A stretch of 64,000 bases of DNA from Nocardioides ginsengisegetis. GTDB taxonomy: Bacteria; Actinomycetota; Actinomycetes; Propionibacteriales; Nocardioidaceae. The position numbers were made by a program, and so were the translations under genes. The notes beneath the pieces are model-generated. The model worked only from the letters and a program-made list of their open reading frames with translations. It made no database searches and was not told the DNA's origin. Position 1 is the stretch's first letter. Each line of letters begins with the position of its first letter. The stretch is taken from NCBI RefSeq assembly GCF_014138045.1, contig NZ_JACGXA010000001.1:989501-1053500 (forward strand), given 5' to 3'. Positions 40,610-46,286 of this stretch are shown here, in pieces.

Positions 40610-41365
40610 TCAGGAGCGGCCGGACTCCGTGTAGCCCGGGGGGCCGGAGAGGCCGGCCAGTGCCGCCTCGACCCGACGGGCGGTGAAGTCGGCGGCCCGC
40701 TCGCGGACCTCGTCGAGGGTGCAGAAGCGGGCCGAGCGGATCTCGCGGGCCTGCTTGACGATGGACTCCTCGATCTCCGCGTCGTGGACGCCGCCGTCGA
40801 AGACCAGGCAGAGCGCGTCGTCCCAGCCACCCCAGGGCGGCAGCCAGTCGGTGACCAGGAGCGGGCCGGCGGGCAGCTCGAGGCCGAGCTCCTCCTCGAC
40901 CTCGCGGACGACGGCGAGCTGCGGGGACTCACCGACCTCGACGACGCCGCCGGGCAGGTCCCAGTCCTGCTTGTAGGTCAGCTGGCACAGCAGGACCCGG
41001 GCGTCGTGGTCGCGGATGAGCATCTGGCTGATCGCCCGCTTGCGGGGCAGGAACGAGTTGAGCAGGGCCCGGAAGCCCTCCGGCTCATGGACGGGCACGT
41101 CGCTGACGATCCGGGCGTAGACGATCCGGTCGACCGGCTCGCCCCCGACGACCACCCCGCGCATCACGCCCTCGCGTCGCATCCCCGACCAGGTCGCGAC
41201 CCGCTGGGCCTCCTCGTCGGCGGGGTCGACCAGCGCCTCGACCCGGTGGTGGGTCACCAGCGCCGTCGCCACCTCGTGCCGGACGACGTCGACGGGCAGC
41301 CCGGGCTCCCAGCTGATCCGGGCGATGCCGTCCGCGACGGTGCTCACGGTGGGCTGCTCGGTCAC
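40610..41365 (-). CDS. NUDIX hydrolase
   Basis: A 251-aa protein. The N-terminal 105 residues form a GNAT-like or family-specific part (ALVTHHRVEALVDPADEEAQ, then VMRGVVVGGEPVDRIVYARI) that resembles the tail of an acetyltransferase. The C-terminal NUDIX domain has the box GGVVEVGESPQLAVVREVEE followed by ELGLEL, with all catalytic Glu present. Such enzymes hydrolyse nucleoside diphosphates linked to other groups. GTG at 41365 lies 7 nt after TAGGGT. It ends 41 nt before the PPDK start. The extra N-terminal domain is odd for a NUDIX protein. Confidence 0.85.
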   Translation of the reverse strand: MTEQPTVSTVADGIARISWEPGLPVDVVRHEVATALVTHHRVEALVDPADEEAQRVATWSGMRREGVMRGVVVGGEPVDRIVYARIVSDVPVHEPEGFRALLNSFLPRKRAISQMLIRDHDARVLLCQLTYKQDWDLPGGVVEVGESPQLAVVREVEEELGLELPAGPLLVTDWLPPWGGWDDALCLVFDGGVHDAEIEESIVKQAREIRSARFCTLDEVRERAADFTARRVEAALAGLSGPPGYTESGRS

Positions 41366-41378: not shown

Positions 41379-41424
41379 GCCGTGGGTGCCGTGGCCGGTG
41401 CTGCGGGCTGGCTGCTGCGCGCAG

Positions 41425-41510
41425 CTTCACCATGAGAAGTGGGTGAGTCTGCACTTCTCATGTTGAATTCACCGTGAGAAGTGCCGCTTCGCCACCTTCA
41501 CATGATGAAG
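41425..41510. repeat. Double-hairpin element, copy 1
   Basis: Four 16-nt arms alternate in orientation: 41426-41441 (forward, TTCACCATGAGAAGTG), 41452-41467 (reverse), 41468-41483 (forward) and 41494-41509 (reverse, 12/16). Arms 1+2 and 3+4 form hairpins with 10-nt loops. The middle pair also forms a loop-free palindrome centred on TGAATTCA. About 86% identical to copy 2, in the same orientation, on the other side of the AbiEi-like gene. Confidence 0.85.
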
Positions 41511-41526
41511 CGGCGTCGGCTGGGCC

Positions 41527-42468
41527 TCACCCGGCTGTCCGGAGGGCACGCTGGAGCCGGGCCTGCAGCACGCGGGGCCGGTCGTAGTCGGACCAGATGA
41601 TCCGGATCATCGACCACCCGGTCGCCTCGCGGAGGGCGTCCTCGCGCCGCTTCTCGGCGAACACCACGTCACCCGGTGTCTGTCCGGGGCGGAGCAGACG
41701 ACCCAACTTCACGAATCCGTCGAACTCGCCGAGCTGACGGCGCTCGGGCCAGGCCCAGTCGCAGGTGCCGAGCAGGGTGCCGTCCGTGTCCCGAACCTCG
41801 TACTGGCACACCGGAGCAGGAACCCCGTGCCGGAAGAAGAAGGAGATGCCTCGGGACTCGCCGATGCTCTGGTGGAGCGGGCTCGCCAACCGCACCGGCA
41901 CGTGGAGGTGCTGGGTGAAGGGCCAGGCCTCCATGGACATGAACTGGGCCATGAGGTCCTCCTGCGTGAGCCCGGTCGCGCGCAGCAGGGCATCGAAGTG
42001 CGCGAGCGCAACCTCACCGGTGCTGCGGCCCACGGCCTCGATGGCGGCCCGCGCCGGCCGCATCACGCGACGTCCGTCGACCTCGACGACATCCTCGTCG
42101 CTGACCGAGCCGACATGGTGCACGACGTCGCCCTCGATGCGGCCCGCCCCTCCGTCGAGCCGAGTCACGTGCACCCGTTGGAGCGGGATACCCCAGATGT
42201 CGAGACCGTGCACGACCGAGGCCGACACGTGGCTGAGGACGACCGCGTCACCCAGGGAGTGCTGGGCTGCGGCGGACCGAACCCGGTGTCGCGCCACGTC
42301 GTCCATCGCCGACCACAGCACGCTGAACGTGTAGTAGCCGCGCCGGATCCGGTGCCACACGCCGCACCGGGCCGCCTCCGCCATCGCCTTCTCGCTGTAG
42401 CCGCAGTCGCGCGCGTCCGACCGCGTGAAGAATCCTCGTGCCGTGACCAGGGTGTCGAGCATGTCCAT
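41527..42468 (-). CDS. AbiEi-type winged-helix protein with nuclease-like C-terminus
   Basis: A 313-aa protein. Residues 1-50 match the AbiEi antitoxin winged helix (LVTARGFFTRSDARDCGYSE, IRRGYYT). Residues 80-170 are the usual middle domain (AVVLSHVSASVVHGLDIWG). The C-terminal 100 residues look like a Vsr/DUF559-type PD-(D/E)xK fold: CDWAWPERRQLGEFDGFVKLG, then EKRREDALREATGW with the aromatic end IRIIWSDY. In classic AbiE systems an AbiEii nucleotidyltransferase toxin follows; none is present here, since the neighbours are glgB and a NUDIX gene. It is flanked on both sides by the 86-bp double-hairpin element, so it may be a mobile or self-regulated orphan cassette. Confidence 0.78.
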   Translation of the reverse strand: MDMLDTLVTARGFFTRSDARDCGYSEKAMAEAARCGVWHRIRRGYYTFSVLWSAMDDVARHRVRSAAAQHSLGDAVVLSHVSASVVHGLDIWGIPLQRVHVTRLDGGAGRIEGDVVHHVGSVSDEDVVEVDGRRVMRPARAAIEAVGRSTGEVALAHFDALLRATGLTQEDLMAQFMSMEAWPFTQHLHVPVRLASPLHQSIGESRGISFFFRHGVPAPVCQYEVRDTDGTLLGTCDWAWPERRQLGEFDGFVKLGRLLRPGQTPGDVVFAEKRREDALREATGWSMIRIIWSDYDRPRVLQARLQRALRTAG

Positions 42469-42593
42469 GCCCCGAGTGCCTCACGACCGGCGCCGGACAG
42501 ACAGGTGCCCTTCGTCGACCTGGGGAGGGGCCGGTCATGAGCCTGCGGTGTGGACGACTGCCGGCTGCGTTGCTCTCGCCGGAGGGCACGCCG

Positions 42594-42679
42594 CTTCACC
42601 ATGAGAAGTGGATGAGTCTGCACTTCACACGGTGAATTCACCATGAGAAGTGACGCTGCGACCACTTCTCATGGTGAAG
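42594..42679. repeat. Double-hairpin element, copy 2
   Basis: Arms at 42595-42610, 42621-42636, 42637-42652 and 42663-42678 alternate in orientation. The second hairpin has a perfect 16-bp stem. The loops GATGAGTCTG and ACGCTGCGAC match copy 1 at 9/10 and 7/10 positions. It lies between the start of the AbiEi-like gene and the stop of glgB. The rest of the gap 42469-42593 shows no gene. Confidence 0.87.
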
Positions 42680-42700
42680 CTGCCGGCGGCGGTGCCAGCC

Positions 42701-44881
42701 TCAGTCGGCCCGCCGCAACCACACCGTCGCGAGGGGAGGCACGACGACGTCGGCGTACGCCGGCTGGCCCGACCAGTCGCCGGCGACGGCCGTGACGGCG
42801 CCCATGTTGCCGACCCCGGAGCCGGTGTAGGTCTCGGCGTCGGTGTTGACGACCTCGTCCCAGCGGCCGGCGGCGGGCAGGCCGAGCCGGTAGCCCTCGT
42901 GCGGCACGGCCGCGAAGTTGGCGATGCAGACCAGGTCGGCGTCGCCGTCGCGTCCGCGACGTACGAAGGAGAAGGTGTTGCGGCCGGCGTCGTTGGCGTC
43001 GATCCACTGGAACGCCGACGGCTCGTGGTCGCGCGCCCAGAGCGCGGGGGAGGAGCGGTAGGCGGCGTTGAGGTCGCGCACGAGGGACTGCACGCCCCGG
43101 TGCTCGGGGTGGTCGAGCAGCCACCAGTCGAGCTCGCGGGCCTCGGCCCACTCCGACTCCTGGCCCATCTCGGCGCCCATGAAGAGCAGCTGCTTGCCGG
43201 GGTGCGCCCACATGAAGGCCAGGTAGGCGCGCAGGTTGGCCAGCTGCTGCCAGCGGTCGCCGGGCATCTTGCGCAGCAGGGAGCCCTTGCCGTGCACGAC
43301 CTCGTCGTGGCTGATCGGGAGCACGAAGTTCTCCGACCAGGCGTAGACGAGGGAGAACGTCATCTCGCCGTGGTGGTAGGAGCGGTGCACGGGCTGGTGT
43401 TCCATGTAGCCCAGCGAGTCGTGCATCCAGCCCATGTTCCACTTGAAGCCGAAGCCGAGGCCGTCCGCGTCCGTGGGCCGCGTGACGCCGGGCCAGGAGG
43501 TCGACTCCTCGGCGATCGTGGTCGCCCCCGGCACCCGCTTGTAGACGGTGGCGTTCATCTCCTGGAGGAACTGCACCGCCTCGAGGTTCTCGCGGCCGCC
43601 GTGGATGTTCGGCGACCACTCACCCTCCTCGCGGGAGTAGTCGAGGTAGAGCATCGAGGCCACGCCGTCGACGCGCAGCCCGTCGGCGTGGAACTCCTCC
43701 AGCCAGTAGAGCGCGTTGGCGTAGAGGAAGTTGCGGACCTCGGGGCGCCCGAAGTTGAAGATGTGGGAGCCCCACTCCTTGTGCCAGCCGCGCTGCGGGT
43801 TGGGGTCCTCGTAGAGGGGCGTCCCGTCGAAGCGGGCCAGCGCCCACTCGTCGGTGGCGAAGTGGCCCGGCACCCAGTCCAGGATCACGCCGATGCCGGC
43901 CTGGTGGAGCCGGTCGACGAGCAGGCGGAAGCCGTCGGGGTCGCCGAAGCGGGAGTCGGGCGCGAAGTACGACGTGACGTGGTAGCCCCACGACCCGCCG
44001 AAGGGGTGCTGCATGACCGGCATCAGCTCGACGTGGGTGAACCCCAGGTCGGCGAGGTACGCCGGCAGCTCCTCGGCCAGCTCGGCCCACGACTTGCCGC
44101 GGCGCCACGACGCGAGGTGCATCTCGTAGACGCTCATCGCCTCGGTCACCGGCTGCTTGCCGGCCCGCTCGCGCATCCACGCGTCGTCGCCCCACGTGTA
44201 GTGCGACTCGTAGACGACCGACGAGGTCGCCGGCGGCACCTCGGCCCAGGACGCCATCGGGTCGGCCTTCTCGCGCCACTGCCCGTCGGTGCCGAGGATC
44301 AGGAACTTGTAGCCGGCGCCGGCGCCGACGCCGGGCACGAACAGCTCCCACACGCCCGAGGTCCCGAGCTGGCGCATCGGGTGCTCGCGACCGTCCCAGT
44401 TGTTGAACGACCCCTTGAGGCGTACGCCGCGTGCCGACGGCGCCCACACGGCGAACGCCGTGCCGCTGATCCGGCCGCCGCCCGGCACGTCGTAGTGGTG
44501 CACCCGGGCGCCGAGGACCGTCCACAGCTGCTCGTGGCGACCCTCGTTGATCAGGTGCAGGTCGACCTCGCCGAGCGTCGGCAGGAACCGGTAGGGGTCG
44601 TCGACCTCGATCGGGCTGTCGCCGTAGGACACCGCCACCCGGTAGTCCGGGACGTCGGCCACGTCGAGCGTGCCGACCCAGATGCCGTCGTGCTCGTGGG
44701 CGAGCTCGGTCTCGGTGCCGCCGTGCCGGACCACGACCGAGGTCGCCAGCGGCTTGTAGACCCGGACGGTCACGCCGCCCTCGTGCGGGTGGGCGCCCAG
44801 GACGGTGTGCGGGTGCCCGTGTCCGCCCTGGACCAGGAGGTCGAGCTCGCCGGTGTCGACGGGCTTCACAGAGGTGGTCAT
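42701..44881 (-). CDS. glgB: 1,4-alpha-glucan branching enzyme
   Basis: A 726-aa GH13_9 enzyme that introduces alpha-1,6 branches into the glucan made by GlgE. An N-terminal extension and CBM48 domain come first (VLGAHPHEGGVTVRVYKP; FAVWAPSARGVRLKG). The barrel carries nucleophile Asp in GLRVDGVASMLYLDY, acid Glu in TTIAEEST, and the stabilising Asp in ISHDEVVHGKGS. Usual family length. Last gene of the glgE-treS-mak-glgB operon. Its ATG overlaps the mak stop by ATGA. Copy 2 of the double-hairpin element follows 22 nt after its stop and may end transcription. Confidence 0.97.
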   Translation of the reverse strand: MTTSVKPVDTGELDLLVQGGHGHPHTVLGAHPHEGGVTVRVYKPLATSVVVRHGGTETELAHEHDGIWVGTLDVADVPDYRVAVSYGDSPIEVDDPYRFLPTLGEVDLHLINEGRHEQLWTVLGARVHHYDVPGGGRISGTAFAVWAPSARGVRLKGSFNNWDGREHPMRQLGTSGVWELFVPGVGAGAGYKFLILGTDGQWREKADPMASWAEVPPATSSVVYESHYTWGDDAWMRERAGKQPVTEAMSVYEMHLASWRRGKSWAELAEELPAYLADLGFTHVELMPVMQHPFGGSWGYHVTSYFAPDSRFGDPDGFRLLVDRLHQAGIGVILDWVPGHFATDEWALARFDGTPLYEDPNPQRGWHKEWGSHIFNFGRPEVRNFLYANALYWLEEFHADGLRVDGVASMLYLDYSREEGEWSPNIHGGRENLEAVQFLQEMNATVYKRVPGATTIAEESTSWPGVTRPTDADGLGFGFKWNMGWMHDSLGYMEHQPVHRSYHHGEMTFSLVYAWSENFVLPISHDEVVHGKGSLLRKMPGDRWQQLANLRAYLAFMWAHPGKQLLFMGAEMGQESEWAEARELDWWLLDHPEHRGVQSLVRDLNAAYRSSPALWARDHEPSAFQWIDANDAGRNTFSFVRRGRDGDADLVCIANFAAVPHEGYRLGLPAAGRWDEVVNTDAETYTGSGVGNMGAVTAVAGDWSGQPAYADVVVPPLATVWLRRAD

Positions 44882-46286
44882 GACACTCCGATCCTTGCGA
44901 CGGCCTCGAGTGGGATCGCCACCCAGGAGGGACGGTTGCGTACTTCGTAGACGGTCTCGTAGACCGCCTTGTCGGCGACGTACGCCGCGAGCAGGACGTG
45001 CTCGTCGGCGGTCAGCTCGCGGCCGGCGTAGGCCTCGAGGAAGGTCGTGCGGTTGCGCTCGGCCCACTCCGCGGCCCGGTAGGCGCGCTGCGGGGCGTTG
45101 TCGTCGTCGGTGTTGCCCCACGTGCGCTCGACGACGCGCGGCGCGTAGTCGAACGAGCGCAGCATGCCGGCCACGTCACGCCAGGGCGAGTCGGGCAGCA
45201 CCCGCTCGGACAGCGGCTTTGCCGGCTCGCCCTCGAAGTCGACGATCTTCCAGCCGCGCACGGTGCGCAGGGTCTGGCCCAGGTGCAGGTCGCCGTGGAT
45301 GCGCTGGACGCGCACGCTCTCGAGGGCCGCGAGGTCGTCGTACGCCGCGCGCAGACGGTCGGCGTGCGGCGCCAGGCCGGGGACGACCAGCAGGGCGGCC
45401 TCGAGCCGGTCCCGCATGGCGGCGGCGAGGGCGCCGACCTGGGCGGCCGAGCGCTCCTCGGTGGGGAAGTGGTGGGCGAGGCTGGCGTGCACCTCGGCCA
45501 GGGCCTCGCCGAGCCGTGCCGACTCGCCGGCGAAGTCGCCGCCGACCTCGTCGGCGTGCAGGTCGGCCTCGGCGAAGAGGTTGCGGACGCTGGCCAGGGC
45601 CAGGTCCCAGCCGTCGGTGGCGGTCTTGAGGAACTGCTGGAGCATCGCCAGCTGCAGGACCTGGTCCGTGGGCTCGCCCTCGGTCGTGAGCGAGGGCGTG
45701 TCGAGCCAGCCGTAGAGGGCGGCCACGTGGTCGGAGCCCGCCGTGGTGAGCACCTCGTGGATGGAGATGTCCGGGTTGGCGCCGGGGGTGATCTTGCGGA
45801 ACACCTTCATCAGCGAGTCGTCGCCGAAGGCGACCGAGGAGTTGGACTGCTCGCCGGCGAACAGCGTCGAGTGGGTCTCGAGGTCCAGCTCGTGGCCGGG
45901 CAGCCGGTGGAACGCGAGCGGCCCGGACTCCGGGGGATCGGCGAAGGAGCGCAGCCAGCAGGCCATCGCCTCGCGGTCGTGCACCGCGTCGTACACGTGA
46001 CACGTGCCGAAGTCCTCGTCGTGCCACTGCCCGAGGTGGGCGTGGGCGATCCGCTCCTGCGGCTCGGCGTAGAAGGCGAGCGGGAGCTGGTAGTACTCGT
46101 CCGCCCCGCCGTCCTCGAAGGACAGCGTGACGAGGTCGATCGCGACGTGCGGCCCGTCGGCGACGTGCCCGGGCACCTCACCCAGGCGCCGGCCGCCGGT
46201 GATGGAGAAGTCGCGACCCTTGCCGCCGAACCACCGGGCCTGCGCCACGAAGGTCGTGAGCAGGTCCTGCGGCTGGTCGGTGGTCG

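Follow-up and report, generated by a model that had tools for sequence, protein, structure and literature searches.

A Vsr-like nuclease encoded between palindromes in Nocardioides: a probable REPtron-like partner system with an unrelated enzyme

Background

The described systems closest to the locus analysed here are the REPtrons, in which a gene for a RAYT (TnpA-REP) enzyme, usually present in a single copy, is flanked by palindromes that are dispersed genome-wide. According to the sections of PMC3733652 and PMC8266576 that treat them, the abundance of the palindromes goes with the gene, the gene is more housekeeping-like than transposase-like, and the enzyme belongs to the HUH tyrosine transposases. 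In TIRYTs the HUH domain and the catalytic tyrosine are retained, and the CGTC repeats are a family of palindromes without a dedicated transposase, as the corresponding section of PMC3733652 puts it.

How does the present locus compare with these systems? In the window, by which we mean the whole 64-kb stretch of DNA analysed (C1:989501-1053500 of a 4.46-Mb genome), a gene lies between palindromes of which further copies are scattered through the genome, and in this it resembles a REPtron as the sections cited portray it. It differs in the enzyme, which has a Vsr-like fold and an AbiEi region, in the palindromes, which are ~90 nt long, and in that one whole cassette is present or absent between relatives. 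Since no HUH tyrosine transposase family was found, the system works like a REPtron but is not one. The TIRtrons are resembled by distant paralogues of the gene, which have inverted palindromic ends with dispersed copies in the window's genome; the difference again is the HUH domain and catalytic tyrosine, which belong to TIRYTs in the section of PMC3733652 concerned.

Other likenesses are partial. The nuclease fold is shared with the Vsr/EDxHD-type nucleases, but unlike the case of EDxHD/Vsr-like homing endonucleases such as I-Bth0305I, the palindrome that is the candidate target here has multiple copies and also surrounds the gene, and no intron or intein was noticed. The N-terminal AbiEi-like region is shared with the AbiE type IV toxin-antitoxin systems; here, however, a nuclease fold is fused to it, and no AbiEii nucleotidyltransferase gene is found in the two adjacent genes (Pfam: glgB and NUDIX). 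The locus also differs from a DDE-type insertion sequence, as no target site duplication was seen by eye at four sites. The open-access literature searched yielded no description of palindromes around AbiEi- or DUF559-type genes, though a subscription paper or preprint could differ, and nothing was found there on palindrome-associated GIY-YIG nucleases, which we take to be a parallel case. As far as that literature goes, neither the protein nor the repeat is related to a described palindrome-enzyme system, which hints that the system may be new in kind.

The cassette and the structure of its palindromes

A first-pass annotation, made from the letters of the window, had described two elements in the same orientation around one gene. 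This description holds: elements A and B (Table 1) are direct copies of 98 nt each, 85% identical, and their four-arm cores lie 17 nt and 126 nt from the gene. With up to three mismatches, the 16-nt arm TTCACCATGAGAAGTG occurs seven times in the 64-kb window, always inside A or B, and the eighth arm of the two elements has four mismatches to it. In 100 shuffles of the window the mean number of occurrences is 0.06 and the maximum is 1, and chance is therefore excluded for the pair. Element B was also matched by covariance model R2 in the genome scan described below, being itself a training sequence of R2. The pair of elements is real and far from chance, and it generalises.

Table 1. Coordinates of the cassette, its neighbours and the frames enclosed at wide-spaced loci
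Feature	Position	Strand	Remarks
Whole cassette, element-gene-element	41417..42683		about 1.27 kb; within the glgB/NUDIX spacer
Nuclease gene	41527..42468	-	313 aa; N-terminal winged-helix/AbiEi-like, C-terminal Vsr-like PD-(D/E)XK nuclease fold
Palindromic element A	41417..41514	+	core 41426-41509; 3' side of gene, 17 nt after stop codon
Palindromic element B	42586..42683	+	core 42595-42678; 5' side of gene, 126 nt from start codon
glgB	42701..45121	-	context outside the system; Pfam GlgB_N, CBM_48, Alpha-amylase
NUDIX hydrolase gene	40610..41365	-	context outside the system; Pfam NUDIX
P-loop ATPase-like frame	L060:2437-3011		wide-spaced locus
P-loop ATPase-like frame	L069:2940-3510		wide-spaced locus
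P-loop ATPase-like frame	L061:922-1500		wide-spaced locus
P-loop ATPase-like frame	L068:1427-2000		wide-spaced locus

What structure is conserved in these palindromes? Each of the two elements is one long imperfect palindrome, with halves of 47-48 nt that are 77-79% complementary, and as single-stranded DNA both copies fold most favourably into a single long hairpin rather than two (z -5.1 and -7.3). An alignment of flanking elements, A3, contains 47 of them; a 48th (L062 downstream) was missed by the element picker and dropped, and the wide-spaced loci introduced below lie outside it. In A3, whose element centres were picked by a palindrome score that favours a long dyad, the dyad of ~90 nt pairs in 78% of cells and has two-sided changes in 41 of 46 pairs. 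Its covariation, a measure to which a fold and a symmetric protein-binding site in duplex DNA look the same, is 0.391 against 0.175 when shuffled and at most 0.107 for slid versions. For the double hairpin proposed at first the value is 0.156 against 0.130 when shuffled; it is not what is conserved, and covariation and folding both favour the one long dyad. A fold of three hairpins is intermediate (0.293 against 0.169 shuffled), partly because its inner helix is common to the dyad. The mismatched cells of the dyad comprise 130 G-T and 158 A-C. As there is no wobble excess, DNA is favoured over one RNA strand. A known RNA family was also considered and set aside, the single match in an RNA family search being MIR6024 (E 0.11), at 22.7 bits far below the gathering score of 72.

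Strong predicted folding and the place of several copies just behind stop codons would suit bidirectional transcription terminators or RNA-stabilising hairpins, which was one of the options first offered. Yet a simple T-run scan, which may not suit actinobacteria, gave no terminator-like site, the dyad has no excess of G-T over A-C, and matching pairs specific to a gene would not be expected of terminators. The option is thus unsupported, and we regard it as extremely unlikely.

Bracketing across the family

Is the bracketing peculiar to this gene? We sampled 73 family loci in Nocardioides genomes, 33 including the window's gene and 40 from the homologue list in rank order, where two at contig ends were skipped. 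A matching palindrome pair was taken as a local score above 25, and 70 of the 73 loci had both flanks. Such a pair surrounds the gene in 63 of the 70 loci, namely 24/28 close relatives and 39/42 distant ones, against 1/87 control genes (0/29, 1/29 and 0/29). Flanks swapped between loci pass in 3.0% (direct) and 7.6% (inverted) of cases, a null that is inflated by homologous loci. Note that the gene strand was mis-assigned by script in some loci, including L036, L040, L057, L067, L077, L083, L087 and L089, which does not affect the symmetric pair test but exchanges the upstream and downstream labels of the L040 and L057 elements. Whether the elements sit beside genes of this protein family had been raised as a check at first pass; the bracketing is family-wide.

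The failing loci comprise L038, L072 and L086, and the close relatives L060, L061, L068 and L069, which have R2 matches on both sides further out. These wide-spaced pairs have identities of 0.79-0.83. Among named genomes (80 loci, partly the same as the sample), 66 of the 78 loci with both flanks pass, with a null of 4.2%, and the positives include Aeromicrobium, Geodermatophilus, Acidothermales and Pseudonocardia; four of the 12 failing loci would, judged by identity and strain, correspond to the wide-spaced loci. The pairs of close relatives are direct or inverted, and those of distant members are mostly inverted, in many cases with an outer and an inner palindrome.

The wide-spaced subtype has a further feature. 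In 4/4 loci the pair also encloses a P-loop ATPase/kinase-like open frame of about 185-190 aa (Table 1), which resembles a passenger gene.

The nuclease and its family

AbiEi_4 was found by Pfam in 65/65 family members. In the window's protein an AbiEi-like N-terminal region is joined to a C-terminal nuclease fold that is Vsr-like, to which we take the label EDxHD to apply, and the nuclease presumably also resembles DUF559. A D..E-x-DG-xx-K/H motif is present in 71 of the 73 family loci, and D236, E247 and D249, candidate active-site residues, are invariant across 65 homologues. Pfam found no transposase domain in the 65 members, three other families matching one member each, weakly (E 0.015-0.054). 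It likewise found no HUH/Y1 tyrosine transposase family in them, the fold being Vsr-like instead, which bears out the initial statement that the protein is not a RAYT. Neither a PDB sequence search up to E 1 nor NCBIfam gave a match to the window's protein. An origin from plasmids or phages was also tried, and the protein has no match at E <= 1e-5 among 72,556 plasmid and 50,697 phage records. The nearest named proteins and genomes are those of Nocardioides, and within the genus 122 of 147 genomes carry a homologue (E <= 1e-30). The gene copies at L052 and L056 have one in-frame stop each (TAG and TGA), so some of the palindrome-bracketed nuclease genes may be decaying.

The homology to AbiEi, a name from defence libraries, raises another reading, that of a defence or addiction module in which the palindromes would serve as a mark of self DNA or as a guard on the nuclease. 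We consider it very improbable, as the adjacent genes are glgB and NUDIX by Pfam, with no AbiEii toxin, and such a module would leave the dispersed, lineage-specific copies unexplained.

Dispersed copies of the palindromes

Covariance model R2 was built from the A3 elements and used to scan 147 genomes, with both strands counted and at most 28 candidates scored per genome, so that counts saturate. Matches were found in 75 of the 147. Each of the 26 genomes that carry a close gene has 6-28 matches, and at least six are present in 16 of the 121 others (Fisher p 3e-18, the cut-off having been chosen with the data in view and related genomes not being independent). Of the 25 genomes that lack a homologue at E <= 1e-30, nine show 2-21 matches, most in G059 (21), followed by G039 (18) and G138 (7); the copies therefore either persist after loss of the gene or are moved by a different enzyme. 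Scattered copies without association to the gene family had been named at first as evidence against a unit of gene and elements. In the window's genome this is half the case, five of the seven copies being elsewhere than at the gene; taken over all genomes the association is strong, with these nine genomes as exceptions.

The palindromes differ from genome to genome. Do dispersed copies resemble the palindromes around the gene of their own genome? In a specificity test 24 dispersed copies, 16 of them from genomes with a flanking pair in A3, were compared with the 47 flanking elements. The best match was from the own genome in 11 of the 16 and from another genome in the remaining five, where it should be noted that the copies were top R2 matches and that a model trained on flanking elements may favour such matches. 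In G001, whose only close gene is wide-spaced, the dispersed copy compared is 0.78 alike to the palindrome of the G052 cassette, and no wide-spaced palindrome is more than 0.54 alike to it. The dispersed copies of G001 are of a type whose gene is absent there.

The window's genome has four full copies of the window-type element elsewhere (C1:1291785, 2762518, 3582487 and 3749898) and one half element at C1:594645, none of them at any of the genome's four family-member places. Of the solo copies, C, D and E are each found 23-34 nt beyond a stop codon. A second family member at C1:608908-609795 (L036), 40% identical to the window's protein, is bracketed by its own, different palindrome pair (G000 C1:608677-609901), and this palindrome occurs at 11 further dispersed places with 85-95% identity. 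The window's genome thus has two nucleases and two repeat families.

Could an enzyme encoded elsewhere, a RAYT or other transposase, move the palindromes, with the nuclease as a passenger or a restrainer? Such a mover would account for the nine genomes with matches and no homologue at E <= 1e-30 and for the G001 copy that is unlike the palindrome of its own gene, and the Vsr-like nuclease fold has no known strand-transfer chemistry. It would not account for palindrome types that mostly follow the nuclease gene, even for two nucleases in one genome, nor for the association of 26/26 against 16/121, and we judge it unlikely.

Some chromosomal places of the cassettes are also shared. Nine loci have the NUDIX-side neighbour in common, and seven of the nine also the glgB-side neighbour. 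In the glgB-NUDIX cassettes the two copies within one cassette are 0.82 alike (n 8), against 0.56 for same-position copies across genomes (n 64), and thus the two ends change together. Since cassettes recur at a few loci, they are in large part inherited vertically or restricted to certain sites. A chromosomal locus can also be common to close and distant family members in different genomes (L040, L041 and L047; L073, L078 and L082; others), and some of these are perhaps opposite to their neighbours in orientation, in a comparison where strands were partly mis-assigned.

Presence and absence between relatives

Four sites vary between relatives, one by a whole 1.25-kb cassette and three by solo copies. 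At site i, where G111 has a cassette (L056), G039 has 20 nt instead, with flanks 97.6% and 94.3% identical over 250 nt, and G114 has 10 nt; G052 carries the cassette, and G072, G011 and G015 hold 424-449 nt of other sequence. In this unrooted comparison gain and loss of the cassette are indistinguishable. At site ii a solo copy in G039 and G111 corresponds to 9 nt in G072, G011 and G015 and to 0.9-1.5 kb of other sequence in G114, G052 and G001.

At site iii a solo copy is present in G052, G072 and G001, with 14-29 nt in G011, G015, G111, G114 and G039. Its outer arms are of CTAGG type in G072, as at that genome's own cassette (L052), and of CAAGG type in G052 and G001, as at the cassette of G052 (L058); over the whole element, the G072 copy is 0.67 alike to its own cassette and 0.69 to two others. 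The arm types would stem from conversion to the resident type, or else from two insertions at the same place. Site iv has a solo copy in G114 alone of eight genomes, six having 13-26 nt and G001 101 nt of other sequence, and the copy is therefore most simply a gain. Its best matches are the cassette palindromes of G072 (0.80), G006 (0.79) and G114 itself (0.78).

Two further observations were made at such sites. At the site of the L123 solo copy, G052 (L251) has a different insert of ~0.87 kb where G039 has the solo element, and by eye a near-perfect palindrome of ~60 nt lies near the end of this insert. At site iv (L118:1495-1604 in G114), as read by eye, the element replaces the last codons of a gene and seems to supply a new in-frame stop.

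No target duplication was seen by eye at the four sites, where old duplications could have decayed. The 9-29 nt at the empty sites consist in part of conserved flank, so that replacement of some bases of the target is possible.

In 18 of 19 relatives the protein matches to glgB and NUDIX at the window's own site are 18-94 nt apart with no cassette between them, and the 19th (L143 of G102) has a 180-nt glgB-NUDIX spacer with a solo double palindrome of the distant type. Ten further relatives' loci comprise nine without a glgB match in the fragment and one (L154) with a longer gap, and R2 has no match at the window-site loci of the 29 relatives. Empty sites, which the first-pass annotation had suggested looking for, are seen for the L056 cassette in G039 and G114.

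These comparisons bear on a reading of the palindromes as operators, by which the protein would repress its own gene through the winged helix, with the dispersed copies as additional sites of regulation. An AbiEi-type N-terminus, a dyad that fits a dimer site (covariation being unable to tell such a site from a fold) and one copy upstream of the start codon are what it would expect. A second copy at the 3' side is superfluous for it, however, and solo copies C, D and E lie behind stop codons; whole copies of ~100 nt that are present or absent between relatives do not follow from it, and neither the nuclease-like fold nor the P-loop ATPase-like frame inside the pair at four wide-spaced loci is explained. 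Operators are therefore an unlikely account.

Discussion

What is the best explanation of these observations? We consider that a nuclease and its palindromes probably form a partner system, which works in the manner of a REPtron with an unrelated enzyme. Of the three options first proposed, the MITE/REP-like cassette with a nuclease other than a RAYT is favoured by the bracketing, by the tendency of dispersed copies to match the flanks of the resident gene and by the presence or absence of copies and of one whole cassette between relatives; terminators are not, and operators do not explain insertions. Partnership, bracketing, dispersal and copy turnover are shown by the sequence comparisons.

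For the working of the system we infer binding and cutting by the nuclease and copying through repair. An AbiEi-type region and a Vsr-like nuclease are encoded between two palindromes of ~90 nt, the same kind of palindrome being dispersed in the chromosome. The winged helix would bind its own palindrome, and the Vsr-like domain would cut within this palindrome or next to it, whether in duplex, cruciform or single-stranded hairpin form. Repair from another copy of the palindrome would then spread solo copies and occasionally the whole cassette, and may keep the copies of one genome alike. As no target duplication is visible, break and repair suits better than DDE transposition, though four sites are few. 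It is also possible that the nuclease restrains the palindromes instead of spreading them.

A wider proposal, which we hold only tentatively, is that of a distinct class of mobile elements in Actinobacteria. Its nuclease would cut the cognate palindrome, repair would copy palindromes and rarely the gene, sometimes with an ATPase-like passenger, and old copies would be converted to the resident type. Such a class would be the break-and-repair analogue of RAYT/REP, with an origin separate from HUH and DDE chemistry.

In Nocardioides and some of its relatives among soil bacteria, the system resembles a small mobile element of an undescribed kind. The known partner enzymes of REP palindromes are HUH tyrosine transposases, in the relevant sections of PMC3733652 and PMC8266576, in contrast with the Vsr-like nuclease here. 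If the reading is true, there would be a second, unrelated enzyme class with its own palindromes, and palindrome-enzyme partnerships would have arisen more than once. It would also point to a role for the large group of proteins that carry the label antitoxin at present. Two nucleases and two palindromes in one genome make a natural experiment.
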